Assembly: GCA_903813345.2 (NCBI GenBank)
Contig: CAIIXF020000005.1
Span: 26,291,375 to 26,355,374, forward strand
Source: Owenia fusiformis
Taxonomy: Eukaryota; Annelida; Polychaeta; Sabellida; Oweniidae
Reading direction: 5' to 3'
Length of the DNA stretch: 64,000 bases
Below, piece after piece: positions 13,801 to 57,800 of the stretch. The translations under genes were made by a program, and so were the position numbers. The notes beneath the pieces were generated by a model. That model worked only from the letters and a program-made list of their open reading frames with translations, was not told the DNA's origin and made no database searches. How positions within the stretch are numbered: the stretch's first letter is position 1; every line of letters starts with the position of its first letter.

Positions 13801-16800
13801 GCCCATTCACTAGACAAAATCATTAGAATGCCATTATCCAAATGTTTTTGCCATTTTTACTTATAGTTCTATGCCAGTCCAGACCTCTATGAAGCAGGCA
13901 AATGAAGTACAAGTTGGCAACTTTTATTTATCGACAAGTAAGTTATTTAGGACAGGCCCGTAGCCAGGGGGGTTCGATGGGTTCGAGCGAACCCCTCCTG
14001 GCCAAAAAAATCATGCAGTTTTTCACCATTCCGAGCACTTTTTAAGTGATTTTGGCCTTTTTTTGGACCAAAATTGTTACAAGTGAACCCTCCCTGGAAT
14101 TTTTCAAAAAGTGAACCCCCCTTGGCAAATCCTGGCTACGGGCCTGTAGGATGATACCTACCTAGTCTTGCGTATATACTCTCCATTGCCCCCCCCCCTC
14201 ATTCATTTTCTTTAACACAGTTGGGGAAATAGATAATGGGGGGGGGCAGAAACTTGAGGCAAGAGTATATTACATAAGGTGATAGGTTTTTTTGTTGTAA
14301 TTTACCGAAACATTATTTATCATATGAAAAACAGTATTGTATGTAATTGCATTGTATTCCTACTTTTAGTTATGGATACTTTACATGTAACTACATCTAT
14401 ATTATATCAGTCAAAGTAGCCTACAGAAAAATAAATGACAGTTCAATATAAAATGCTAGTAAGTGTTATGTGACATACATATGTGACATGGGTATGTCAT
14501 AAGTATGAGTACAAGTATTTATTCCGATTGTAATATGATAAACAAACCAGAGAAACAACTTTTTGCATTCATGAAATTAGTCATCATATATGCACATGCC
14601 TTAGGGGAGGCATCAAAAGTTCGATGTCGGATCGGAAACTAAATAAATCTAGTTTTGACTCTGACCCCCCCCCCTCCCCCCAAAAACTAAATACCATGAA
14701 AGTTGATAGCTGACTTCCGGTTTGAGAATTTATAAAATTATTGCTAAACATGATCTAGTTTTTTTGTTAATTCCTATCGTAATTTGCGGCTTTTAACAAC
14801 TTTTGATAGAATAGAATCCATTGGAATGATCTTGACGAAGAAAGCATCAGGTAAAATCTTTATTTTTAAACCATTCAAAGCATTCTCAGTCGAAATTGCC
14901 AAAAATTTGAAATGTTGAAATTTGTCGGATAGCAAACTGAAATGGGTTTGAACCCCCTCCCCTCCTAACTAGATTTATTTACTTCATAGATTTATTTAGT
15001 TTTCTATCCCACTTCTAACTTTTGATGCCTCCCCTTATACAGTAAAACCTGTCTTAGTGAACACCTCGCTCTAGTGAATATCTGTCCCCAGTGGACACCC
15101 TTCCTCTGCACATATTCTACTGACTTTGGTATAAGTTACCCTCGCTGTAGGGAACACCTACCAACACTGAACGTTTTTTCCCAGCAAAGAAATATTCAAT
15201 ATCCACAGGTTTTACTGTAGGCCAGTAAATCAATTGTACTACTTATTGTGACATCATACATCATATAATTGTTGAATTACATACACGAGTGAATCAAAAC
15301 ATTCAATAAACCAGCCTTATGAAACTATAGAGAGCATTATTGGGTTGTTTTTTCCGTGATCTTCCCATCTTTATGCTGTACTTCTAAATTTCAGATTTAC
15401 TAAGTAAATTGTCAGGATTCAAGAAGTTAATGCCAAGAGAAGCCCCCAAAGACCCCTCTATATTCCTCCTTGATGGTACCTTCTACCATGGATCAGGTCA
15501 ATTGACCAACCCCCAGGTCAGTTTGCTTGTTTATATACAATGATTTTATACAATGATTTAGCAATAAAAAGGATTTTTATGAGCACACTCTAGTATACTA
15601 ATGGCAATTGGTGTGTGTACACCAGCGTAGAAAATCTACATACATGTGGTGCAATCAGTGAGATGTGTTTGTTTTTACTTTGCCTTATGAGCGTAAACTA
15701 ACCAGAACTCATCATACCTGTGAATGTTTTAATCAAAGGGTCAAACTATCATACCACAGAGTTCATTAAAACACACAGGCATTGCCTTTGCTATGATACC
15801 ATGGATGGAGAAAAGTCTACATATCATATTAAAGGTCTTCAAATGGGCAGTATTTTTAATGGGTGTTTCTGCTACACATCAGGGATGATGTGCATTTGGT
15901 GTTAATCATTGCTTATTTATTGCTTAATTAAACTAAAATTTTATTTTAATTGAATTCATATTTTTCCAAAAAAGAACCTTTAAAAACAACCCTTTGAAAA
16001 AAATCACAATAATTATGATGATTTGGGTAAGACTTCAATTTGAATCAGAACGTACCTTTAAAAGAGAGCTTCATCCTCTCTCTTAAGTTAAGAGATTCTC
16101 TTTTGATCTCATCTTGTCAAAGTCCTGGTGTCAATTGCATTAGAATTGCAATTCCAGAAATGTATGCCTTTGTGAACAGTTGACAATTATGTCATAATCT
16201 AACTCCTATAAATATTTAAGTGGAACACCTCCCAAGTGGAACTCTATATTGAGGTATAAAAGGCATTCCACATACACAGGTTTTACTGTATATCATCGTT
16301 GTTAAATTACTTAAATACATTGTAGTTGTATTTATGTTCAGGTTGGTGATCTTCGTGTGACATTCCACTATGCAGGCCTCAGTGGGGCAGAATCAGCCTC
16401 CTTAGGACCTCCAGATGTTGTAAGTTTTGCACATATTCTTATTTTGATTGGAAAAATGTGGAAAGACCATTTTTTCTAAAAAACGGTGGTAGTATATGCT
16501 GTAAAAAATTCTAGGCTAGAAGGTTTTGGTTTGAAAAAAAGAAAGAACTTCTCAATATGCCATTGACCATTTGTTTCTTATTATCTATGAATATCAATAC
16601 GATTGTATTATATGAGCACAGACATTAATATATGAACGTAGAATGAAGCAGACATTATTTTTGAGAGTGGATAAAATGTTTACTTCACAATATGCCGGAG
16701 ATAACTTTTGTTGTTATATTTCAGGTGAGCGTGATTGCACGCCAGTCAGGAAATTCCTTGTCTAAATATGAAACTGAGGCTGGAGATGACCTTGAAATGT

Positions 16801-19800
16801 TGTATATGGGCCAACTAACAGCTGAGGTAACCATGTTTACATTTAAACAAAAATTGTATTTTGTGGTATTTTAAATTACAACTGTATAATCTGCATGGGT
16901 TTTAGACCAATAGTAAGATGGCAGTAGTGTACACTGTAGTTCATATGGTATGCTCTAAAGAGGGGAGTACCCCAGAAATCTTTATTTTAAGATGATTGGT
17001 TTTATATGTCTACATTGCTTCATAGTGAAATTAACGTAATATTATTTGAAGCATTTTAAAAAAAAATTTAGTTCAAAAATTTATTTATGTCACTTTCTGT
17101 CAGTTGACCAATCAGTGATGATGGGTCATCTCTATATGACTTTCCATTGAAGATATGGGTTTTCTCTGAACCCTGGGTATTCTCCCCTCTTAAAGAAGAT
17201 AGTACTATATAAATGCACTGCCATCTTTTTGTGAACATGATTTGTATCTACGTATTTGTTGCATTGAAATGTCTTCTGCCATAAATTATTTAAGTCACAC
17301 TGGTCCCTCCTACATTCTTTATATACACTCATACTCTTCGCCATAATATTGATCCTCTCGGACATAAACCCCAAGAAATGGGTAAAATCGGGTAATTGTT
17401 GTAAATAACATTAAAATCTCTTCAGAAATGCTCAATTGTCTATTACGAGTATATTTTACATTTTTTTCCAACAATATTTTTAACACTTCAGAATAAGACT
17501 CCTTTATTCTTGTGTGTTACAGCAAATCTTCCAGAAAGAACACATGCATAACAAAGTAGTGACATGGGGGGTGAGAGGTGGCGGTTGGCTGCTGATGTTC
17601 ATAGGATTTGGCTGCTTTACAAGTCTAATAACAACACTTGGTAAGTAGGAGATATCCAGGGGAACCCCCCAACCCATCCAAAAATTCTTTCAAAATCACG
17701 CAGTTTTTCACCATTCTGAACACTTTTCAAGTGATTTTGGAGTTGCTGTTTATACTTGGTCACATGTATGAACCAATAAGGACCAATCAGGGAGGAGTAT
17801 GACAGAGAGATAATAATATACAAATATTTATTTCATTGCAAATACCTTTACATTTGGCATCTTGTGAAAGATGTTTTAGAACATTTGCATGATGAGCGAA
17901 TACCTCCTGTTCTTTTATGTCATGTGACTTAGGTATGACCAATGATATTAGCTGACAATTATAAAATATTAGATTAGATATTGTATAATAGAATAACAAT
18001 AGAATATCTATATCTAGTAAAACATATACCAGTATGATTGATATTTTTTAGTTCTGATCCGAATAAAATGTCTATTTTAACTTTCATTTATAATTATACA
18101 TGTCCGTGTCTCAAATCTAGAGTTTGAGATTCATTCATTTCATACTTTTCTTTTTGTTATTCCCCCAAGGCAGCAAGATCTCTCCACAATGTTAAAAGAC
18201 GATTTTCATAGTTGGTATCCCTTGGCAGCCATTGGCATATTTTCTCAAATAGTTGGTACTCTTTTCTGTCCACCTTTCGTCGTTGATTAGCTAAATCTTC
18301 AAGTTCTGGTCTAAGTCCTGGTCAGAATTTGGAAAGAATATTTGTAGTTTGATTTTTAGTTTGATTTCATTTGATCAAACTAAAATATTGGTGACATATA
18401 TTATAAACATGTTGTTCTTGCAATCAAGGACGTCTATCTCAGAGATAAACGTCCTTGTTGCAATGTTTTTACCCACTCAACTCCAGTATGGAATAAAGTA
18501 TTTAGTTAGAGTATTCTTAGAGTGGCAGCAAATACATAGAGTTCAAAGTTGCAACTTGCAGGTAAAACGTTCAAAAAGCATGTTGATTGGTCTTTTACAA
18601 TACATACATTTATTAAAAAAACTTAAAGCTGTTCCATAAAATGAAGTCATGTCTTGAGTAGGATATTTTAGAAAAAGTAGGCATGCCATGGAATGGTGAA
18701 AGCTTTCCAAATCATTATCATTATCTTTAACTGCACTATTCTCCATATCAATTTTGCTTGTTCAACTTTAAAAAAGCAAATAAGTAATACTCACTAAAGC
18801 AACCGCCTTTCCACCCAAGAAACCCTTGACAGCAAGATATACGATTTTTTGGGCATATTTCATCTAAGCGTGGTTCAAAGTGACAACACCGTCGCCTAAA
18901 ATCATTTATAATCTTATGTTCAATACATTTTCATTCCATTTAAATGTCAATGAACAAATTAACCTATAGCAGGAGTCATATTTAAAAGAGTTTTAAAACC
19001 TTATGTTTTTGTTGACACACAGACTCAGACTGATATCTTGCAATGTACAGTATATACACTGCTTCATATATTTGGAGGCAAAAATGAACAGAGATTGCAA
19101 AAGCTGTCCTGTTTTAATGAGACAATCTTTGATAGTTGTTTCTGACTGATCTGACCTGATTTAAGCAGTGGATTCATACAATACAATCATTTGGCTGAAA
19201 ATAGCTGAAATGTTCATTTTCGGTATTTTAGAATTTTTCATAGAGTTTACTTACCCATTCTGACTCCGATCCATTCCTTTTGTTAGAATTCCATCTGTTA
19301 TAGCAATCCCAGCCAATAAACAAATGACTGCTGCCAATGTGAAATTCATCCTTATTTTTGAATCTCCAGATTTTTATTTCAGCTACTTGCCTTGTTTCCC
19401 TTGTTATGTTTTGAAAAACTTAGTTGGCATTTATTCAAATCATGAGGTCTACCCTAATATATGCTGCTATTCTTCTCAATTGCATGAAAATAGGAAATGT
19501 TTTTCTGATGTTAACAAGAAAAGTAAAAGAAAACATATCTTTTTTTGTTTCTGTTTTGTTTTGCTAGAACTTAGTTATTGTTTTGTATGTAGTGTACTAG
19601 ACTTGCTAAAGCCTTTGTGACCCCCACTCCTCTGTACACCTTCCCATGGGTGGTTGTGTTGAAGAAGATAAGAAGGGGGATGGGTCCAGCGACTGGAAGT
19701 AAGACTAGTAGTGTACTTTGTGCACTACCTTATCTAGTTCCAAGTAATATCTCTTGGTATTATTCATTATTATCTCAAAAGGCCTCCATTCATCAGTCAT

Positions 19801-22800
19801 TCAGTCATCCTTCTGTCTGCGGAATTAATCAAATTATTATGAGCCTTTATATTTTGTAGAAAAATGATGATTAGAAAAGAATTTGCATCAAGTTTGAGTT
19901 CCAAGTTTAGCTTACTCATGCCAATAAAAAGTTTGTTAAGTTCATTAGGGATATAGTGAACCTATAGTGAAGCCCTCCATCCATTATTCGGTCAGTCCAG
20001 GCAAGTCAAGTCCAGTCCAGCCCAGTCTAGTCCAGTCCAGTTAGTCAGTCCAGTACCACCAGGAAATCACACTGATTCTAAGAATATAGAAATTATATTA
20101 TACAAATATTTTATTTTATTGAAGCAAATACCTGTACATTTTGCACAAGAGATTTTCCCAAAGCCTGAAGGGCAACTGGGATGTCATCTTCCGAAACATG
20201 ATCCAGAAAATTACAAAATGCAGAAAGCAATATTACTTTATTTCATGACAGTAAGGAATGGATGATCAGCAAAAATTTCACTTGAAATTCTAGAAAATCA
20301 ACATTTTCATATATGAAGTGCTTATCTTTCTTCTCACCCTCTAAGGAAATTTTCCTTGTTTTCAAACAGTTTTTGACAGTTTGACACCATTACTCGCACT
20401 GAATGAAGTTGCATTGTACATTAGTGGAACTTGGTAATTGTTCATCAAAAGGCTTCATTGCTCTTTTAAATCAAATATGGAAAGAAGTCAAATACCCTTG
20501 GATCAAGGATGATGTTCTATTTGCATGATCAGTGAATACCATCTGTTCTTTTATGTTATGTGACTGACTGACCTAGGTATGACCATTAATACAAGCTGAT
20601 GATGATAACATATTAGATTAGATGTTGTATAATAGAATAACATATGCCAGTATATTTGATATTGTTTAGTTATAAAATGTCTATTGTATAACTTTAAATC
20701 AGGATCTGAAGTCTAGAGTTTGAGATTTGGACATTTCGTACTTTTCCTGTTTTCATTCCCGCAAGGCAGCAAGATCTCTCAGCAATGTTTTAAGACGATT
20801 TTCATAGTTGGTATCCCATGGCAGCCATTGTTGTATGTTCTCAAATAGTTGTCGCTCTTTTCTGTTCAGCCTTGATGAATATCTCACTATCTCTCCAAAT
20901 TCTTGGGCATATCCTGGTCAAAATTTGGAAAAAATATTTGTAGTTGGATTTGTGTTTTGAATTCATTTTTTAGTATAATTTCTGAGAAACATTTGAGATA
21001 TCAAATATGATTTTCATATGTATCATACAAACATAAAGCATTTTCATGAAATGAAGTTAGATCTTTTGTCACTTTGACAATTTTCCAATTTCCAGATTTA
21101 GCTTTATCCTTTTTTTCTTGTTCAGTTATAAGAAAGCGGATATGCCATGCAATACTTACTAAAGCAACCGCCTAACCACAGGACAAGCCCTTCACAGCAA
21201 GTTATATGTTCTGATGGGCAGCTCTCATATAAGGGTGTAGCAACTGCGCAACACCATCGGCTAAAATCATTGATCATCTTATGTACAGAGTGACTCAAAA
21301 AACATTTATTCAGTTGAACAGATTTGTGGGTTCTGCTTTTTTGGGTCACCTAGTAGAATTCATTAAAGGAATTCTAATTGTTAAAAATGACCAAAATATT
21401 GCAGTGTGATTACTTTCTGGGGTGAGGCCAAATGACCTTGACTTATTCATGACCCTACCTGCTTCATATATTTGTGGGTAGGAGTAAACAGATCATGGAT
21501 TATTGCAATAGCTCACCATGGGAGTTGACGAGAGACATATGAAATAATCTTTCATAATCTGATGTTTTCTGACTGGTCTGACCCGATTTGGTACAGTTTA
21601 CTTACTCATTCTGAGGCATATTCTGAGGCATTCCATCTGTTATAACAATGCCAGCCAATAAGTAAATTACTGCTGCTAATGTTAAATTCATCCTTATTTT
21701 TGAATCTTCAGATTTTTTGTTTAGTTATTCGCCTTGTTTCTCTTGTTTTGTTTTGAAAAATGTAGAATTAGTTGGCATTAGAGTGGCTGTTCAAAGGACT
21801 GATGAATGGATGTATATGGAATAATTACCGTATTCTCTTTAATTAGCGTCTAGTGCATTTAGAAAATTCAAAATTCAGCCTTCAGACCATAATAATAAGC
21901 ACTAGTGTAAGTACTCTGTTATCGCTCACTTGATTTCTTTGAAAATTCAATTTTTTGTCAATACTGGGTCATTCCTCAATATTTCTAGAACTTTGTTAAG
22001 CGAGGCAGGCACTTATTAGGGGGTGGGGACTAAATACGGCGATTTCGGTAGAATAATAACAAAAAAAGGTATTATTTGTTACTTGATATAGTCGTAAACA
22101 AAGTACACATCTTCAAAAACAATACAATAACTAAGTTCTAGCAAAACAAAACAAAAACATAAAAATCATAATACAGATTTTTCTAGTGAAATTTAAACAA
22201 GATGTTTTCCTTTCCTTTTCTTGTAAACATCAGAAAAACATTTCCTGTTTTCATGAAATTGAGAAGAATAGCAAGTCTATACAGGGTGTTTCATAATGAT
22301 TGTCCCTATACAGGATGTTTCATAATGATTGTCCTTCTCGCAATCACCAACTTAGATAACATCATAACTCCATGTCTTATATATCAGACGAAAGGTGATT
22401 CAATTTTAGACTGAAGCTCAGCAGCTTTTACTATTTGCTACTGTAACATATATATCTTCAAAAGGTGTCCATTTGATCTATGGCATAAAATCGAGTAGTC
22501 ATGTGCTCTGTTAAAAGCAATGATAACCGAGGTCCAGAGGATATACAGTATCTTTATGATATTTGAAAAAATATTTAAATATTTCAAAGAATTACACAGA
22601 GAGCTCTAAATAATGAATGGATTTACTATCTTGTCTCTTTAAAACCTTAACAAATAGTGGCCATAAATTGAGTCCTGGGCTTAAATCCTTCAATTCCTTC
22701 ACTTGTTGTGTAAAATGATGATGAATATAAAAGAAAATGTAAACTGGCTACCTTGATATGTGAATTTGCATCAGATTTAAGATCTCTTCTAAGTTTGACT

Positions 22801-23981
22801 TAAAGGGTGTATATAAAGATGAAATGGATACTCAGCTTTCATTCCATGTAAAGAAAACAGAAAATAATAAAACATTGATGGAGTGGGAGCTGTTACAATG
22901 ACCCCTATTTTCAGAACGTTTCGTCCTGTGTATTTAATGTTTTGAATTATTAATTCAATTACAATAACATTGCCATTTTTGGTCATATCTCTTGAAAGTA
23001 TTATACGCTATATTATCATATGTTGCATTTTGTTAATGGAAGGGAATCTAATTAATTAGTTTCCTCAGCTCAGAAAGTCATATTCAACATTTTCTAAGCC
23101 CTTGATATGTATATACTATACATCCTTGAATCATCCCAATAAAAAAGTTCATCAGGGCATGGGCTCTATTGAATGCCCATGATCAGGGATATAGTGAAGC
23201 CCTCCAACCATTATTCAGTCCAGTCCAATCTAGTTCAGTCCAGTCTAGTCTAGTCTAGTCTAGTCTAGTCTAGTTCAGTTCAGTCCAGTCCAGTCCAGTC
23301 TTGTCCAGTCCAGTTAGTCAGTCAAGTTAGTTCAGTCCAGCATTCAATCCAGACTGGTCAGTCCAGTCCCACAATGGTATCACAATACACAGATACTAAA
23401 TATAAAGATTCCCTCCATATTTTAAAGAAAGCATATGAATGCAAAATTTTTAATAAATATTCATGGAATAATACAGATTTCTACTTAAAAAGAGTTATAC
23501 TGTAATTTTAAATTACATGTTTATGTTTTTCAGTTGATTGGATACCAATTGTGCGTGAGTTAGTGGCAAAAGGTGTCACCACTATGAATCTGTTCTTGTC
23601 AATTAAAAGAGTTGTAATTTTAAATTACATGTTTATGTTTTTCAGTTGATTGGATACCAATTGTGCGTGAGTTAGTGGCAATAAGTGTCACCACTATGAA
23701 TCTGTTCTTGTCAATTAAAAGAGTTGTAATTTTAAATTTCATGTTTATGTTTTTCAGTTGATTGGATACCGATTGTGCGTGAGTTAGTGGCAATAGGTGT
23801 CACCACTATGAATCTGTTCTTGTCAATCAGCCTCAGTTTGACTGTTATTGCCCTCGGCTGGATTCGCTATCGTCCACTTCTTGGAATGACAATATTGGCT
23901 CTTGCCGCAACACCCTTTATATGGACACGATTTTACAGCAGGCGGAGAAATGAAAATGGTGACAGTTATAGGAGTGCATAG
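10807..23981 (+). CDS. TMEM43: TMEM43 (LUMA) orthologue, nine 3' coding exons
   Basis: Coding exons: 10807-10901, 12147-12196, 12501-12570, 13867-13937, 15395-15516, 16342-16419, 16725-16826, 17523-17640 and 23758-23981 (stop TAG). All have AG/GT borders and their phases join without a break, giving 309 codons plus stop; the vertebrate protein is about 400 residues. The N-terminal exons, with the first membrane segment, are not found here. Family signatures include [51 protein letters not shown] and SVIARQSG. Three hydrophobic segments near the C-terminus (about [41 protein letters not shown]) fit the known topology: a nuclear-envelope/ER protein that binds lamins and emerin, with a large luminal domain. 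By my alignment, the serine changed in human arrhythmogenic cardiomyopathy (S358) is also Ser here (SIS-LSLT). The last intron hosts two genes on the other strand, and the last exon's 5' part is triplicated. Confidence 0.95.
11883..12058. mobile_element. GTAGCCAG-family transposon fragment in TMEM43 intron
   Basis: Begins 'aggcctgtagccagcttttgcc' and carries 'aggggttcacttttcaaaaaattcta', 'caaagtgctcagattgactccaaaatggtg' and 'aaaactacatgatttt'. These are the internal blocks, in reverse order, of the complete element at 13953-14146. The right terminal repeat is missing or decayed. The 11863-12105 frame is not a gene. Confidence 0.6.
12636..12817. mobile_element. Pogo/Tigger-like MITE, 182 bp
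   Basis: The ends read CAGTAAACATGCCTTAGTGAACACC and, at the right, an inverse form finishing 'caggttttactg', flanked by TA on both sides (12634-12635, 12818-12819). A TA target and CAGTAAAACCT-type ends are typical of pogo/Tigger-class Tc1-mariner relatives. The interior is a string of degenerate 'agtgaacacct' blocks. Related copies lie at 15040, 16210, 29837 and 31987. Confidence 0.75.
12879..13687. mobile_element. hAT-type non-autonomous transposon, 809 bp
   Basis: Perfect 15-bp terminal inverted repeats: TAGGGATCCCACGAT at 12879-12893 and its reverse complement at 13673-13687. They are bordered by a perfect 8-bp target-site duplication ATGTACAC at 12871-12878 and 13688-13695. The TAGGG start, 8-bp duplication and subterminal ATCGAT/TCGATTAATCGA-rich sequence all fit hAT elements. 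A C21 run lies at 13557-13577. No transposase domain is visible; the overlapping frames at 13289-13757 cross the C run and are not convincing. It sits in a TMEM43 intron. Confidence 0.9.
13953..14146. mobile_element. 194-bp MITE, GTAGCCAGG family, complete copy
   Basis: Perfect 16-bp terminal inverted repeats: CAGGCCCGTAGCCAGG at 13953-13968 and its reverse complement at 14131-14146, flanked by the direct repeat TAGGA at 13948-13952 and 14147-14151. It begins only 15 bp after the donor site of a TMEM43 exon. This is the reference copy for fragments at 11883, 17650, 24594 and 52575. Confidence 0.85.
14163..14267. mobile_element. ~105-bp TAGTCTTGC-family mini-element
   Basis: The left end is TAGTCTTGCG and the right end GGCAAGAGTA, an imperfect inverse. 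A C-run follows the left end and a G-run precedes the right end. Similar elements are at 27309-27406, 27541-27648, 32714-32788 and 59454-59573. It lies 16 bp after the MITE at 13953-14146. Confidence 0.55.
14604..15034. mobile_element. PIF/Harbinger-like MITE, 431 bp
   Basis: Terminal inverted repeats of about 50 bp start GGGGAGGCATCAAAAGTT on the left and are mirrored at the right end, with shared inner sequence 'aaactaaataaatcta'. The flanks are TTA on both sides (14601-14603 and 15035-15037), the 3-bp target duplication expected of PIF/Harbinger elements. No transposase is present. Confidence 0.75.
15040..15217. mobile_element. Pogo/Tigger-like MITE, 178 bp
   Basis: The left end CAGTAAAACCTGTCTTAGTG and the right end 'ccacaggttttactg' are inverse. 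TA flanks the left end (15038-15039) and TA follows the right. The internal 'gtgaacacct' blocks match the copy at 12636-12817. It starts five bases after the Harbinger-like element ends, so the two elements share a flank. Confidence 0.75.
16210..16288. mobile_element. Pogo-like MITE fragment
   Basis: A short remnant running from 'aaatatttaagtggaacacctcc' to 'cacaggttttactg' followed by TA. Most of the interior is lost compared with the copies at 12636 and 15040. It lies in a TMEM43 intron 53 bp before the next exon. Confidence 0.6.
17650..17750. mobile_element. GTAGCCAG-family fragment next to a splice donor
   Basis: Contains 'caggggaacccccc', 'cacgcagtttttcaccattctga' and 'cacttttcaagtgattttgg', the internal blocks of the 13953-14146 element. 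It starts about 10 bp after the donor of the 17523-17640 TMEM43 exon. Confidence 0.6.
17827..17832 (-). terminator. Poly(A) signal candidate for nested gene A
   Basis: AATAAA on the minus strand, 325 bp downstream of the stop codon of nested gene A. An equivalent AATAAA follows nested gene B (20115-20120) in the matching duplicated sequence. Confidence 0.4.
18157..19349 (-). CDS. Nested small secreted cysteine-rich peptide, gene A (118 aa)
   Basis: Three coding exons on the minus strand: 19349-19255, 18895-18795 and 18317-18157 (stop TAA), all with GT/AG borders, phases joining without a break. The first exon gives a signal peptide (start [14 protein letters not shown]) and a short spacer ending NG. 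The second, 101 nt, begins RRCC and holds six cysteines spaced CC-x9-C-x6-CC-x9-C, ending GGCF. The third gives a 53-residue charged tail with [10 protein letters not shown] and DTNYENRL. Gly-Arg-Arg just before the cysteine core resembles a prohormone cleavage/amidation site; gene B lacks it. An extra cysteine sits in the tail (ICQW). The gene lies wholly within the last TMEM43 intron, opposite in direction. I do not recognise the family. The call rests on a conserved gene structure shared with gene B, in which exons 2 and 3 keep length and frame. Confidence 0.85.
18425..18457. other. Near-perfect 33-bp palindrome
   Basis: Arms CAAGGACGTCTATCTC (18425-18440) and GAGATAAACGTCCTTG (18442-18457) pair with one mismatch around a single A. 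It lies in the second intron of nested gene A and is absent from gene B's intron. The exact half GAGATAGACGTCCTTG recurs at 52302-52317, so it is probably a dispersed mobile core. Confidence 0.7.
19975..20045. repeat. Pentanucleotide microsatellite (CCAGT/CTAGT type)
   Basis: A short imperfect run of 'gtcca' and related 5-mers. It closes duplication unit A and lies upstream of nested gene A on that gene's strand. A longer equivalent is at 23216-23345. Confidence 0.8.
20115..20120 (-). terminator. Poly(A) signal candidate for nested gene B
   Basis: AATAAA on the minus strand in the sequence matching the signal of gene A; a second AATAAA overlaps at 20110-20115. Confidence 0.4.
20753..21691 (-). 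CDS. Nested small secreted cysteine-rich peptide, gene B (115 aa)
   Basis: Tandem paralogue of gene A, same strand and structure: coding exons 21691-21606, 21260-21160 and 20913-20753 (stop TGA), GT/AG borders, continuous frame. Exons 2 and 3 have exactly the lengths of gene A (101 and 161 nt). The signal peptide starts [14 protein letters not shown]; the spacer holds a short MPQN repeat. The core starts RWCC and keeps CC-x9-C-x6-CC-x9-C and the closing GGCF. The tail includes [10 protein letters not shown] and DTNYENRL. Against gene A, the tail is 31/53 identical, the core 16/33, while the first 17 tail residues share only two. Nearly all codon differences change the amino acid. The Gly-Arg-Arg of gene A is Asp-Arg-Trp here. 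Conserved sequence before both start codons suggests both copies keep their own 5' leader. Function unknown; a secreted defence, signalling or reproductive peptide is possible. Confidence 0.85.
21826..22050. mobile_element. TACCGTATT-type inverted-repeat element, 225 bp
   Basis: The left end reads TACCGTATTCTCTTTAATTAGCG and the right end reads '..ctaaatacggcgatttcggta', an imperfect inverse. Half copies with 'aattagcgccc' and 'aggcgcttattagggggtggg' are at about 4005-4075 and 30063-30165. It is inserted upstream of nested gene B. Confidence 0.55.
22277..22339. mobile_element. Duplicated mariner-like end remnant
   Basis: 'tatacaggGTGTTTCATAATGATTGTCC'-type sequence occurs twice, about 37 bp apart. 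TACAGGGTGTTTCA is a common start of mariner-class inverted repeats; compare the full element at 44925-45742. No coding part remains. Confidence 0.5.
23216..23345. repeat. Pentanucleotide microsatellite (CCAGT/CTAGT type)
   Basis: 'agtcc' and 'agtct' 5-mers repeated over about 130 bp, including a pure run of 'tctag' units. It closes duplication unit B and mirrors the tract at 19975-20045. Confidence 0.85.
23510..23845 (+). repeat. 112-bp tandem triplication across the last TMEM43 exon acceptor
   Basis: The branch/pyrimidine region, the AG acceptor and about 80 bp of exon are present three times; exon starts fall at 23534, 23646 and 23758, exactly 112 bp apart. Copies 1 and 2 diverge at 'tgtcaatt-aaaagag', while copy 3 continues to the normal end. 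In the frame set by the previous exon, copies 1 and 2 run into TGA at 23647-23649 and 23759-23761. Copy 3 has Ile-Gly where copy 1 has Lys-Gly and copy 2 Ile-Ser. Confidence 0.95.
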
Positions 23982-41960: not shown

Positions 41961-43374
41961 GTTTTTAGGTCATTTTCATTTGTCATCATTTATTGTGACC
42001 TAGGGTATAATCATCTTGAGATCATCCTTGCCTAAAATCAACATGAAATCATGAAACTTATTAGCTGTGATTTCACCATGAGGTTTACAACTTTGGAGTA
42101 TCATCGCATCATCATCAACAGGTGGTCATTTCTAAGACATCGATATAAAGGATTTCATTCATGAGATGAACTCTCACTGAAGTGTAAATTAAGATTTAAG
42201 AAATTATTATATTGAGGAGATTAAAGCAAATATTTGAAGATTAGGGGTTTTGTTTTTGATACATCTTTTAGGAACATTAAAGGTCTGTGGGTCTTGTGGA
42301 TGGATTATTGTCACTTGTCAGTTTGGAGATATGGCCTGTAAAAACAAATCTAAGTATTCTTATTTGAACAATTCGATTTGAAAATATCACATCTGGGTCT
42401 CGCTATTGTCAAAAAACTTCTCAAGTTTTATTCTTACCTTTTATTGATCTCTTCTTCATACAAATCGTTATTTGAGATTATTTGCTTATTGAGATGGTAT
42501 AGAAATCGAAAAATAGAAGTATAGTGTATTGTCACTATGTCCACATTTGGTTGACAAAGCTGAATCAACACAATAAGAATGTATAATTCAATCAATTAAA
42601 TCAGGAAAATAAACCCCTATTTAATTGTTAGTTTCTTTCAAAGTATCATACCTTGGCCGTATAAAACTAATCAGTTTTCTTTAGAGAATTTAATACTTTG
42701 AAAACACAATGTCACCAGTTTGAAACATTCTCAATTGAAAATGTTTCATTAATGGATATATTTGAAATTCACTTTCTCAAGTGCGCTTTTTGTTTTCATT
42801 TTGTAGGCTGAGAGGGAAAAGTTTCAGTGATTGAAAATGAAATTGAATTTGCCGTTATGCAGTTTGAAAAGTTGGCTTGTCACCTTAAGTGGGTTGCTGG
42901 TCAGGTTATATATTATATGTAGGATCAAAAATGGGTTAAATACTAAATATTAAGAAACCATTAAGTCTGAACAACAACAGTGATTAAACTTACTGTTATT
43001 GCGCCCATTAATAGAATATATTAAAGAAGTAGAAGTTTTACTATTTTTACCTTATGGTGACAACGGTAAATGACATTTCAGCAAAATTAGTGACCCTGTA
43101 TTATAGGATAGACTAGTTCAATGATTTAGGAAAAAAAATTCTTTAATTTTGATTGATTTTTCATCTTGGCAAAATTACCAATACAAAATAAAATGGTACA
43201 TGCTTGTATATAGTTTATATGGAATGGTCCATTCATATTATCAGTTAGTTTGTCGTAGACATACAATAATATGGTACAAACCAGACCTTATGATAAAGTG
43301 AGTTAACTAGGCAGTATCATAGCTAGGGCAATGTGCATTGGCAAACACTCATGTGTGATCAGCTCAATGCAGCG
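41961..43374. other. Gene-free intergenic stretch
   Basis: No gene, RNA or transposon end recognised. Confidence 0.45.
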
Positions 43375-43765
43375 CCTAAAATGCACATTAGTGTACCTTA
43401 AATGCTCATTAGGTTGCCTCAAATGTGCATTTGGGTTGCCTAAATGCTTATTAGGTTATCTAAAATGTGCATTGGGTTGCCTTAAATCCTCATTAGGTTG
43501 CCTTAAATGCTCATTAAGTTGCCTAAAATACGCATTGGGTGCATTGGATTGCCTGAAATGCTCATTAGGTTGCCTCAAATGTGCATTTGGGTTGCCTAAA
43601 TGCTTATTAGGTTGCCTTAAATGCTCATTAGGTTGCCTAAAATGTGCATTGGGTGCATTGGGTTGCCTTAAATGCTCATTAGGTTGCTTAATATGTGCAT
43701 TGGGTTGCTTAAATGTCATTAGGTTTCCTAAAATGTGCATTGGGTTGCCTATACCTGTGGTATAG
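43375..43765. repeat. 21-bp TTGCCTAAATG minisatellite
   Basis: Alternating 'ggttgccttaaatgctcatta' and 'ggttgcctaaaatgtgcattg' units of 21 bp, with a larger ordered pattern (two blocks both containing 'gtgcattgggtgcattgg'). The unit is a multiple of 3, so a 144-codon frame of CLKCSLG-type repeats stays open on + and one of RQPNEHL-type on minus. I judge both incidental. Confidence 0.9.
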
Positions 43766-53084: not shown

Positions 53085-53560
53085 TACACCTTGCAGTAGC
53101 ATTGTCACACCTTGCAGTAGCATTGTCACACCTTGCAGTAGGATTATGACATATTGTAGCCCAGTTTGCATGCCTTGTGGTATTATTGTCACACCCTACA
53201 GTAGAGTTGTGACACCTTGCAGTACAATTGTCACACCTTGCAGTAGCATCGTCACACCTTGCAGTACCACTACAACATTTTGTAACCCAGTTTGCATGCC
53301 TTTTGGTACTATTGTCACACCCTACAGTAGAGCTGTGATACCTGCAGTACAATTGTCACACCTTGCAGTACAATTGTCACACCTTGTAGTAGAATTGTCA
53401 CGTCTAATAGTCGAATTGTCACACCTTGTAGTGCAATTGTTACTCAAGTTTAAATGCAAATCAGCTGATACAATGCAAGTGTAATAATGCAAGGCAATTT
53501 TACTCATGCAATACAGAACAACTAATGCAATGCAAATCAACCAATCCAATGCAGGTCAAC
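53085..53560. repeat. 21-bp CACACCTTGCAGTA minisatellite and decayed AATGCA tail
   Basis: 'attgtcacaccttgcagtagc' units of 21 bp with variants run to about 53440, followed by looser 'caatgcaa' repeats that fade out past 53860. The 192-codon frame at 52906-53484, the longest in the window, is mostly this repeat (TPCSSIV-type heptapeptides); the other strand is open too. I do not call it a gene. Confidence 0.85.
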
Positions 53561-54520: not shown

Positions 54521-54824
54521 TATAAATACCACGTGACCTGTATCAGCCAATCAGCGCTCTGTATTTTCTTGGCCTGAATGGTATTCATCAAAACGTGGGA
54601 TCCTAGTATCGCATTTCCAGTGGAGATTTTGTGTAGTGAAGTTCTATCGAAAATTTTAGGGAGTATTTCTTCATTTATGTAGCTGTTACGAGTAAAAGCG
54701 GATACATAAGACACTCAACTACAGGAACAATGCTACCAACGTGGATTATACGACGATAAAAGTCACTTTTAGAGGAGATATTGAAACTGAGAGTTCATCG
54801 GGGCTTTGACCCCTCGAAACCAAG
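54521..54824 (+). promoter_or_regulatory. Core promoter and 5' leader of the LRR gene
   Basis: TATAAATA at 54521-54528 is followed at once by the E-box CACGTG at 54530-54535 (CACGTGAC, USF/MYC type) and a CCAAT box at 54547-54551. The CCAAT box lies downstream of the TATA sequence, so the start point may be CCAAT-driven and further downstream. The initiating ATG is at 54825. Confidence 0.45.
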
Positions 54825-57800
54825 ATGGCCGCCCGAAAATGGATATTTCTTGCTTTTGTTTTGATATCGGGCTGGTCTCTTGAAGGGGTTTCAGGAGAAA
54901 ATATGAAGTGTCCTGATGTCTGTTCCTGTCTGGGGAACGCTGTGGACTGTAGTAACAAAGGCAAAAAGGAGCTTCAAGCGATACCAGCCGATATACCGAA
55001 CTGGGCCACAGATTTGTAAGTTTTCTTTCTGTACAAATAAAGTGCACTCTAAAATTGGTCTATTTTCTCCCGATTTATACTCTTTCGTCCAAATTTAGAG
55101 TATTTTAGTTATGCAAGGATAGTATCCTCTTGATGTTTTGTAAGTATTTCACGGAAAAATGCACGAAATACCGCTGAAAAACGGACGAGAAGTTCATAGT
55201 TTTTGTCAAAATTTGATTACTTTATGCTCAAATGGGTTCCTTACATAGCTGTTAAATTGGCCTACAAACTTGACCTGTAATGTATGCATATAAATGAATG
55301 GAATAGTTCAACATACTTTTCATGTTAGATTCATTTCAATTTTAGTGTGTACGTACAAAATGTATTGATTTTTTATGATAATTGTAACTTTTTTGACAGA
55401 TAATATTCTTTGGAAATTGTTACAGTGTTATCCTTTATTGTAACATTTTGCTACAGTATATCATTTATTGCTACAGTTATTTCAAAAATTCATTGTAATA
55501 TTTTCTGTCAAAATTGTTGAACAGGTCAAACCTTGAAAAAGGCATGAGTTGATTTTGTTGAAATATCGAATGATTTTTGACTATGGTACAATACAAACAA
55601 TAGGGTGTTGTTGATGGATTCCTTGGGTCCTGGGTCAATCTATATTTTTGGCTTAGATCGTCAGATCACTGAAAAGAGCTTTGCAGTTTGATTTCTGGTG
55701 TATACACATATCATCGTTAACCATATAACTGTAACTGTAATATATTGATGATTTTTCTTCGATTCCAATCATATTTCGTAAAGTTTATAGGGAATAGAAC
55801 ATACATGGGACATAATCCCATGGTATTATCCAAAGTTATCGGTATGCATTTTGTAATGAATTTTTGATTTCTTTACATGCTTTTGAGACTCAATTGGTAT
55901 GGTTTGTTGGGGTTCTTCTAAAAGTAGGGAAATAACTAGGATCAGAATCTTGTATTATATATTGTAAGACTAATCATTTTCATGTCGGGTGTAACATAAA
56001 TTTTGAAGTTCATTTTAAAACAGCCATTCATTGGATTCTATTATTTAGAACATACTTTAGAATAAACAGTACCGTCATTTTGCAATTCTCTTAAAAGTTC
56101 ATGTCTATCCATAAAAAATCTATAAACGTGACGCAAAAAAGATGTAAATAATTAAAATATATTTTATGGAAATGAAACAAAGTTCACACATTGGCATTTA
56201 GAAACTTAGAGTTCCCAACATGCCATAAAAAAGCTGTAGAAATTATGACTATAAACTTCATGCAGATGTTGAGAAAATGCTTTTTGAAGTAAATATTAAT
56301 ATCAAATTAAGTTTGGCCTGGTATATTTTGATAAAGTTTCAACTGCAATTGGCCTATAAAATCTCTGAATAGGAGGTATTATTCAGCCATGGTGTTTTCA
56401 GAGTTAAATTGCTTTTGGAGGTACAAAGCCGTGAAATTTTCTTTGGCATAGAGTCATTGGGTTTATACTGTAATTCTATACCTTTATCATAACCTGAATA
56501 CTGTTGAAAATTCTATTTTCTATACTTTTGAGATTTTAATTGAATCATGTTGTATTGAAAAATACTGGGCTACAAGTTTCATTAGTAATTAAAACATGCC
56601 ACAACAATACAAATATGAAACAGACACATTTGTCCTAGGTATTTTGTTTATATGGGTAACATCATTGAAAATTTAAGAATTAAGAATATAACACATAATA
56701 CATATTACCTAATTTCATAGCTTTGATCGAATATTACTGAACTTACAGAGAAATGTTTGCAACAATGAGCAAATTCTAACTTGAATCAATATGACCCAGT
56801 AGTCCAGTTTTCCCGTAATTGCAGCTCTATGGTACACTGTTTGATTTTCAGTCGCAAGCAAATATATTCAAACACTTCTAGTAAATGAAAGGGACTCTTT
56901 TCATAGTTTTGGCTTTTCAAATCTCCCTGAGCCTTTATTTGCATTCGTTGGTTAGAAAGAAAACATTGTAATCAGGCATACCTATATGTTCACATAATGA
57001 AACATACTAATGACTCTGCGAGATATTACACCAGGATCTTTCAATCTAATATTAAAATATCTAGTATATATCACAATGTCATATCTCAATGGTATGTTTC
57101 TAAGTTTTGAAAATACATTTTACTTTACTTAGGTTTGTGTTAAGTTGGTGCACTTACAATATGAACTGTAGGTGTACTTATTCAAATGATGTACATGTGT
57201 TAATGAATGGTATGTGGGTATTTTTAGTGTCTTAATGGAGCTAATTGTCTCTTCACTAGCTCAGCATATAGATGAGAAGTCATAGAATCACTCAAACTCT
57301 ATGGCTAACTAGCCTCCATTGCTATTAGCTGTACCTATCACCTTGGCTGGGTATTGCATAATTTACGCTTATCAACTTCCTTTCTTACGTAGTTATTTTG
57401 AAGCCAAAATATAACATTTATTTTACAAACTTTCATGACAAACTTCAATATGCCTCAAAGTGAATTTGAAAGGAAAGGAAAAAGCTCAAACATCCTTCCT
57501 TAACTAGCTTCAATTAGTGTACACCTATGATGTTTTCTATTAAGGTCATTATTGGCCTATTTTCTCAGTCCCTTTCTTGGCTTTCTGGTTAATTCATAAC
57601 AGGGGTTCCTCCATAGGTTTTTTACAAGCAACTCAAGCAGAATGGCACAAGTGTTACAATTGTTTTTAGAATTGTGATTTCTAACACCCAGTGGGTATGT
57701 CCATTGTTTCGTAAGATAAAACATCCATATTGAATATTTTCAACCAACTCTACTCTTATATTCCATTTTACCATTAATCCATAAGTCTGGATATATCCTC

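Follow-up and report, generated by a model that had tools for sequence, protein, structure and literature searches.

A stretch of 64,000 nucleotides (nt) of the Owenia fusiformis genome (contig CAIIXF020000005.1, positions 26,291,375-26,355,374 of the forward strand; assembly of 498 Mb), called the window below, carries two related three-exon genes, A and B, both on the minus strand and inside a single intron of TMEM43, the host gene being on the plus strand. A third member, C, was found on another contig. We tentatively regard A and B as tandem-duplicated working genes for secreted, disulfide-rich precursors of defence-type effectors, in an Owenia family of at least three members; this is taken as the most likely reading because a fast-changing mature part is combined with a layout like that of the mussel myticins.

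The preliminary description of the locus had proposed nested, duplicated three-exon genes on the minus strand of one TMEM43 intron, and this arrangement is intact in both copies. The junctions 19255/18895 and 18795/18317 (A) and 21606/21260 and 21160/20913 (B) are present with GT/AG borders and identical phases (2 and 1), exons 2 and 3 measure 101 and 161 nt in both copies as described, and the open frames lead to proteins of 118 (A) and 115 (B) residues. The pattern CC-x9-C-x6-CC-x9-C was recovered in both by a pattern scan, and after GGCF both proteins continue with the expected charged tail of 53 residues, of which 21 in A and 18 in B are charged. The N-termini are signal-like, as had also been proposed, with a hydrophobic core at residues 4-17 (mean Kyte-Doolittle values of 2.69 and 2.59); lysine and arginine are absent from residues 1-20 of A and B, and C has K2 and R5. 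Two extra cysteines occur in A: C10 lies within the signal region, C93 within the tail.

The comparison of A with B argues that both copies have been maintained as coding sequences. When the two units were aligned with MAFFT, a single indel of 9 nt was observed over the 348 coding columns aligned, although 7.7 would be expected (P(<=1)=0.004) from a non-coding rate of 2.2 per 100 that depends on the chosen gap cost. In exon 2, the cysteines are identical at 6/6 positions and the other residues at 10/27; the hypergeometric chance of finding all six cysteines among the 16 identical of 33 residues is 0.007. Neutral drift simulated from B to a distance of 0.30 (20,000 runs) left 1.7% of the sequences stop-free, and 0.045% also kept six cysteines. 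The nucleotide identity of exons 1-3 is 79, 71 and 77% and that of the introns 56 and 68.5% in the MAFFT alignment; with an alternative gap scheme, the introns reached 75 and 80%, over fewer aligned columns in intron 1. The flanks, which are probably untranslated regions, reach 72% on the 5' side and 77% on the 3' side; they are as similar as the exons, and overall identity alone therefore does not mark the coding part.

The mature part has changed faster than the signal region. By the Nei-Gojobori method, the ratio of non-synonymous to synonymous divergence (omega, dN/dS) between A and B is 0.20 for the signal, 1.18 for the linker, 1.55 for the cysteine module and 3.27 for the tail (overall 1.51). 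Among 3,000 bootstraps, the share with dN above dS was 79% for the cysteine module and 94% overall; for the tail it was printed as 1.000. A codon likelihood analysis rejected a single omega, with 0.31 for the signal and 2.05 for the mature part (likelihood-ratio statistic 16.1, p=6e-5); fitted separately, the signal region gave 0.17. Three features support coding status: indels are few, the cysteines are kept, and the signal is constrained although the mature part next to it changes fast. That A and B should be non-functional relics or chance open frames is extremely improbable. Such an origin would fit the lack of relatives found beyond Owenia, a whole-coding-sequence omega not different from 1 (p=0.22) and flanks as alike as the exons, but the indel, stop and cysteine tests reject it, and the low omega of the signal under both fits, the existence of C on another contig with similarity mostly limited to exons, and the independent annotation of A and B all speak against it.

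A secreted protein under diversifying selection, of a structural, tube-mucus, gamete or pheromone type, would also be compatible with the fast change of the mature part after duplication. Owenia inhabits a secreted tube. Neither the repeats nor the composition of silk or glue proteins could be seen by eye, however; there is no positive pointer to gametes, and we consider this explanation unlikely.

A and B are already annotated. A deposited O. fusiformis protein is 100% identical to B over its full length (P0001, E=6.8e-75) and another to A (P0002, E=4.0e-77), and the splice sites match these proteins exactly. Gene finders, which it was thought could overlook such fragmented genes, therefore did not miss them. 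The entries (NCBI/UniRef) are named "unnamed protein product" and "Uncharacterized protein", and the proposal that no named family fits has held: neither Pfam (at E<=10) nor NCBIfam returned anything for A or B. Protein searches with A and B, in which candidates had to share short exact words with the query (3, 16 and 491 candidates), gave no other protein at E<=10, and sequence comparison with the PDB gave mixed matches only, all at E>=0.11. Among titles and abstract starts on annelid or Owenia antimicrobial, toxin and cysteine-rich topics, none dealt with the family of A, B and C. The elements added by the present analysis are the member C and the wider family definition that follows from it.

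C was detected by a search of the own genome with B as the only query (E<=0.001; 8/8 first-look candidates scored). Six matches were obtained, corresponding to the three exons of B, two exons of A and one place on contig 6 (E=3.6e-6). The latter stretch (L007) holds a complete three-exon gene on the minus strand, encoding 117 residues, with donors GTAAGT and GTATGT; its exons 1 and 2 were chosen by eye from the sequence. The family size is given as at least three members because the genome was searched with B alone. At the nucleotide level (E<1e-3), exon 3 of C is 73% identical to A over 105 nt and 74% to B over 106 nt. The other matches at this threshold, both with B, are 24 nt at the start of exon 2 and an unrelated-looking stretch of 20 nt, and the similarity is thus mostly confined to exons. 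At the protein level, C shares with A and B, respectively, 10/19 and 10/19 residues in the signal region, 12/32 and 10/33 in the cysteine module, and 23/52 and 24/52 in the tail. All three genes have the CC-C-CC-C order, a coding region split over three exons (phases 2 and 1), and the tail motif QWLP-x-D-x2-YE-x-RL-x-TL-x-R-x2-AAL. The cysteine spacing given in the preliminary description is exact for A and B, but it did not stand as a signature of the family, because C has CC-x15-C-x5-CC-x12-C. As judged from these three sequences, the family is recognizable by its tail motif, its exon plan and the order of its cysteines, with loop lengths left free. Pfam gave for C two matches to unrelated names (E of 0.03 and 0.068), below their cut-offs.

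The better conservation of the tail than of the cysteine module between C and A/B would suit a neuropeptide or peptide-hormone prohormone, in which the conserved C-terminal part of the tail after RK, or the cysteine module, would be the signalling ligand. In both A and B, the conserved tail region does open with an RK pair, and GRR, an amidation-site pattern, stands immediately before the cysteine module of A. At the place of RK, however, C has QR; B is devoid of GRR, RK being its sole dibasic pair; the pattern scan of A and B gave no furin-type R-x-[KR]-R site, and the C-terminus carries no amidation signal. A prohormone is unlikely in our view, although it ranks next after the defence-type precursor.

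C has a host gene of a kind similar to that of A and B. Plus-strand frames around it match the Ig-like domains 15 and 16 of NUP210 (Pfam, E=6.5e-19 and 7.3e-13) and nuclear pore membrane glycoprotein 210 (PDB, E=5.9e-26). C is flanked by an exon-like piece ending at L007:3909, which, by eye and recall, we take to belong to NUP210, and by an exon from 6523; the closest upstream piece within the NUP210 Pfam match ends near L007:2280. As these frames are read here, C lies antisense inside a NUP210 intron. With TMEM43 and NUP210 as hosts, A, B and C would all be antisense in introns of genes for nuclear-envelope membrane proteins; occurring at two independent places, this shared host type may be a coincidence. 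A broader reading, possible if doubtful, is that of a secreted family of the Owenia lineage with a CC-C-CC-C framework of free loop lengths, matched to no described one in these searches, whose three members found so far would be positively selected immune or mucus effectors nested antisense in introns of nuclear-envelope genes; transcription of the host genes could then influence the expression of the nested members because of this position.

Several known peptide families were compared with A and B. CS-alpha-beta peptides (myticin, mytilin, defensin) are characterized by a C-x3-C plus C-x-C signature. This signature is absent from A and B, whose six cysteines follow the CC-C-CC-C order, and Pfam gave no match at E<=10 for either. 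The layout of A, B and C nevertheless most resembles that of the mussel myticins. In the description available for myticin precursors, the signal, the cysteine-rich region and the C-terminal region, of about 20, 40 and 40 residues, are encoded on separate exons (PMC7356231). Similarly, the signal, cysteine module and tail of A, B and C each have their own exon (about 20 residues plus a linker, 33-41 and 52-53 residues), and like the myticins, as described there, the genes are multi-copy and variable (PMC7356231). No sequence similarity to myticins was found in A or B; homology is not claimed, and neither is membership of the myticin family, because the test of the cysteine signature fails.

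The cysteine patterns of other frameworks were likewise not found in A or B. Like the trefoil (P-type) domain, they have a CC pair between single cysteines and a CF ending, but unlike in trefoil domains their first cysteine adjoins the second; the six-cysteine trefoil spacing is absent and there is no Pfam match at E<=10. The insulin A-chain pattern is CC-x3-C-x8-C and that of CC chemokines CC-x(20-26)-C-x(14-17)-C; neither pattern, nor a trissin-like one, occurs in A or B. The inhibitor cystine knot has the order C-C-CC-C-C, which is also absent.

A and B share with inhibitor cystine knot peptides, including the modular purotoxin-2, a short disulfide module that contains a CC pair and precedes a tail that may be helical. 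Among the weak PDB matches, none significant, were psalmotoxin-1 (E=0.45) and purotoxin-2 (E=0.86), and the profile match to the latter covers both module and tail. A glandular, toxin-like two-module peptide, with a disulfide module and a helical tail like the modular spider peptides, would fit this coverage, and toxins combining a cystine knot with a helix have been described (PMC7232441). This explanation is very unlikely: an E-value of 0.86 is not significant, the cystine-knot order is absent, the tail of A and B has a net charge of only +1/+2, moderate helical moments and a low mean hydrophobicity, and Owenia is not known to be venomous.

The architecture is what points to a function, and by analogy we infer the following for the defence-type precursor. 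Exon 1 would encode a signal peptide directing the precursor into the secretory pathway. Exon 2 would encode a compact module in which the six cysteines of the CC-C-CC-C order form three disulfides. The charged and perhaps helical tail encoded by exon 3 would aid folding or storage, or keep the module inactive; it might be cleaved at basic residues, at RK in A and B or at QR in C, after which the released cysteine module would act extracellularly against microbes. This is supported by the cysteines, kept despite residue change between A and B and despite loop-length change in C, and by the cationic cysteine modules of A (net charge +3) and C (+4).

Other results weigh against a defence-type precursor. 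With a net charge of -2, the cysteine module of B is not cationic, and the conservation of the tail in C is odd for a disposable pro-region. The evidence for omega>1 in the mature part is weak, with p=0.05 when the scale is shared and, in separate fits, p=0.022 for the mature part, 0.020 for the tail, 0.257 for the cysteine module and 0.220 for the whole protein, all these values being uncorrected for several tests. Exon 3 (18157-18317 and 20753-20913) shows little synonymous divergence between A and B, 0.10, next to 0.34 in the signal and 0.25 in the cysteine module, and the high ratio of the tail may result partly from gene conversion or from chance in dS. An AlphaFold model computed from the two-row alignment has a mean predicted local distance difference test score (pLDDT) of 43.5, with residues 31-60 in blocks at 35-37; it places helices at 65-75, 80-90 and 99-114, after the cysteine module, the last two in blocks at 48-55. 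This prediction is only a hint of a helical tail and is uninformative on the fold. As to expression, the O. fusiformis genome annotation is described as built with RNA sequencing (RNA-seq), Mikado, Augustus and PASA (PMC9977687). If the models of A and B stem from it, as they presumably do, their expression is likely, because RNA-seq support is reported there for 31,678/31,903 transcripts (99.29%), probably including these two, although this is a genome-wide figure and not specific to A and B (PMC9977687).

According to the phylogenetic work cited, the group that includes Owenia is sister to all other annelids (PMC8111721). With their unusual cysteine order, A, B and C add to this lineage a candidate peptide for defence or signalling, and their disulfide scaffold may be new. 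They can also serve as a test case for secreted "orphan" genes confined to one lineage: C could be traced on another contig by its tail motif, its exon plan and the order of its cysteines, where the protein search with A and B found nothing outside the species. The coordinates of the genes and of the host exons are collected in Table 1.

Table 1. Coordinates of genes A, B and C and of the TMEM43 exons (positions in the window, unless L007 is indicated).
Feature	Position	Strand	Length or remark
Gene A exon 1 (coding part), signal-like N-terminus and linker	19255..19349	-	95 nt
Gene A exon 2, six-cysteine module RRCC...GGCF	18795..18895	-	101 nt
Gene A exon 3, charged tail (53 residues) with stop codon	18157..18317	-	161 nt
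Gene A candidate polyadenylation signal, AATAAA	17827..17832	-	another AATAAA at 17508
Gene B exon 1 (coding part), signal-like N-terminus and linker	21606..21691	-	86 nt
Gene B exon 2, six-cysteine module RWCC...GGCF	21160..21260	-	101 nt
Gene B exon 3, charged tail (53 residues) with stop codon	20753..20913	-	161 nt
Gene B candidate polyadenylation signal, two overlapping AATAAA	20110..20120	-	another at 20242, closer to the stop
Gene C exons 1-3	L007:6114-6044, 4910-4786, 4417-4260	-	same phases (2 and 1) as A and B
TMEM43 internal exon	16342..16419	+	
TMEM43 internal exon	16725..16826	+	
TMEM43 exon directly 5' of the intron holding A and B	17523..17640	+	
TMEM43 terminal exon	23758..23981	+	stop 23979-23981

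The candidate polyadenylation signals of A and B fall in a short block that is similar in both units (17806-17859 and 20088-20145). The stretches upstream of A (19465-19764) and B (22055-22273) are alike in inverted orientation, the genes themselves being direct repeats; their complementarity is 90% over 79 nt, 94% over 47 nt and 74% over 54 nt, which suggests a rearrangement or a mobile sequence at the edge of the duplication.

The host gene was identified by the joined translations of the plus-strand exons, which match Pfam TMEM43 (PF07787) with E=4.7e-48. The acceptor region and the start of its last exon form three tandem copies with a period of 112 nt (23501-23836), copies 2 and 3 being 98% and 90% identical to copy 1. 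As the acceptor region is triplicated, there are three candidate acceptors before the last exon, of which only the third runs into the full terminal exon; provided that this last one is used, the host intron extends over 17641-23757.

Elsewhere in the window, an open frame at 54810-55013 (plus strand) begins in a signal-like manner and matches LRRNT at a sub-threshold E of 0.00051; a leucine-rich-repeat protein, secreted or membrane-bound, probably has its first exon here. Tandem repeats at 43374-43751 (periods of 42, 63 and 114 nt) and at 53086-53440 (21 and 126 nt) yield long repetitive open frames.

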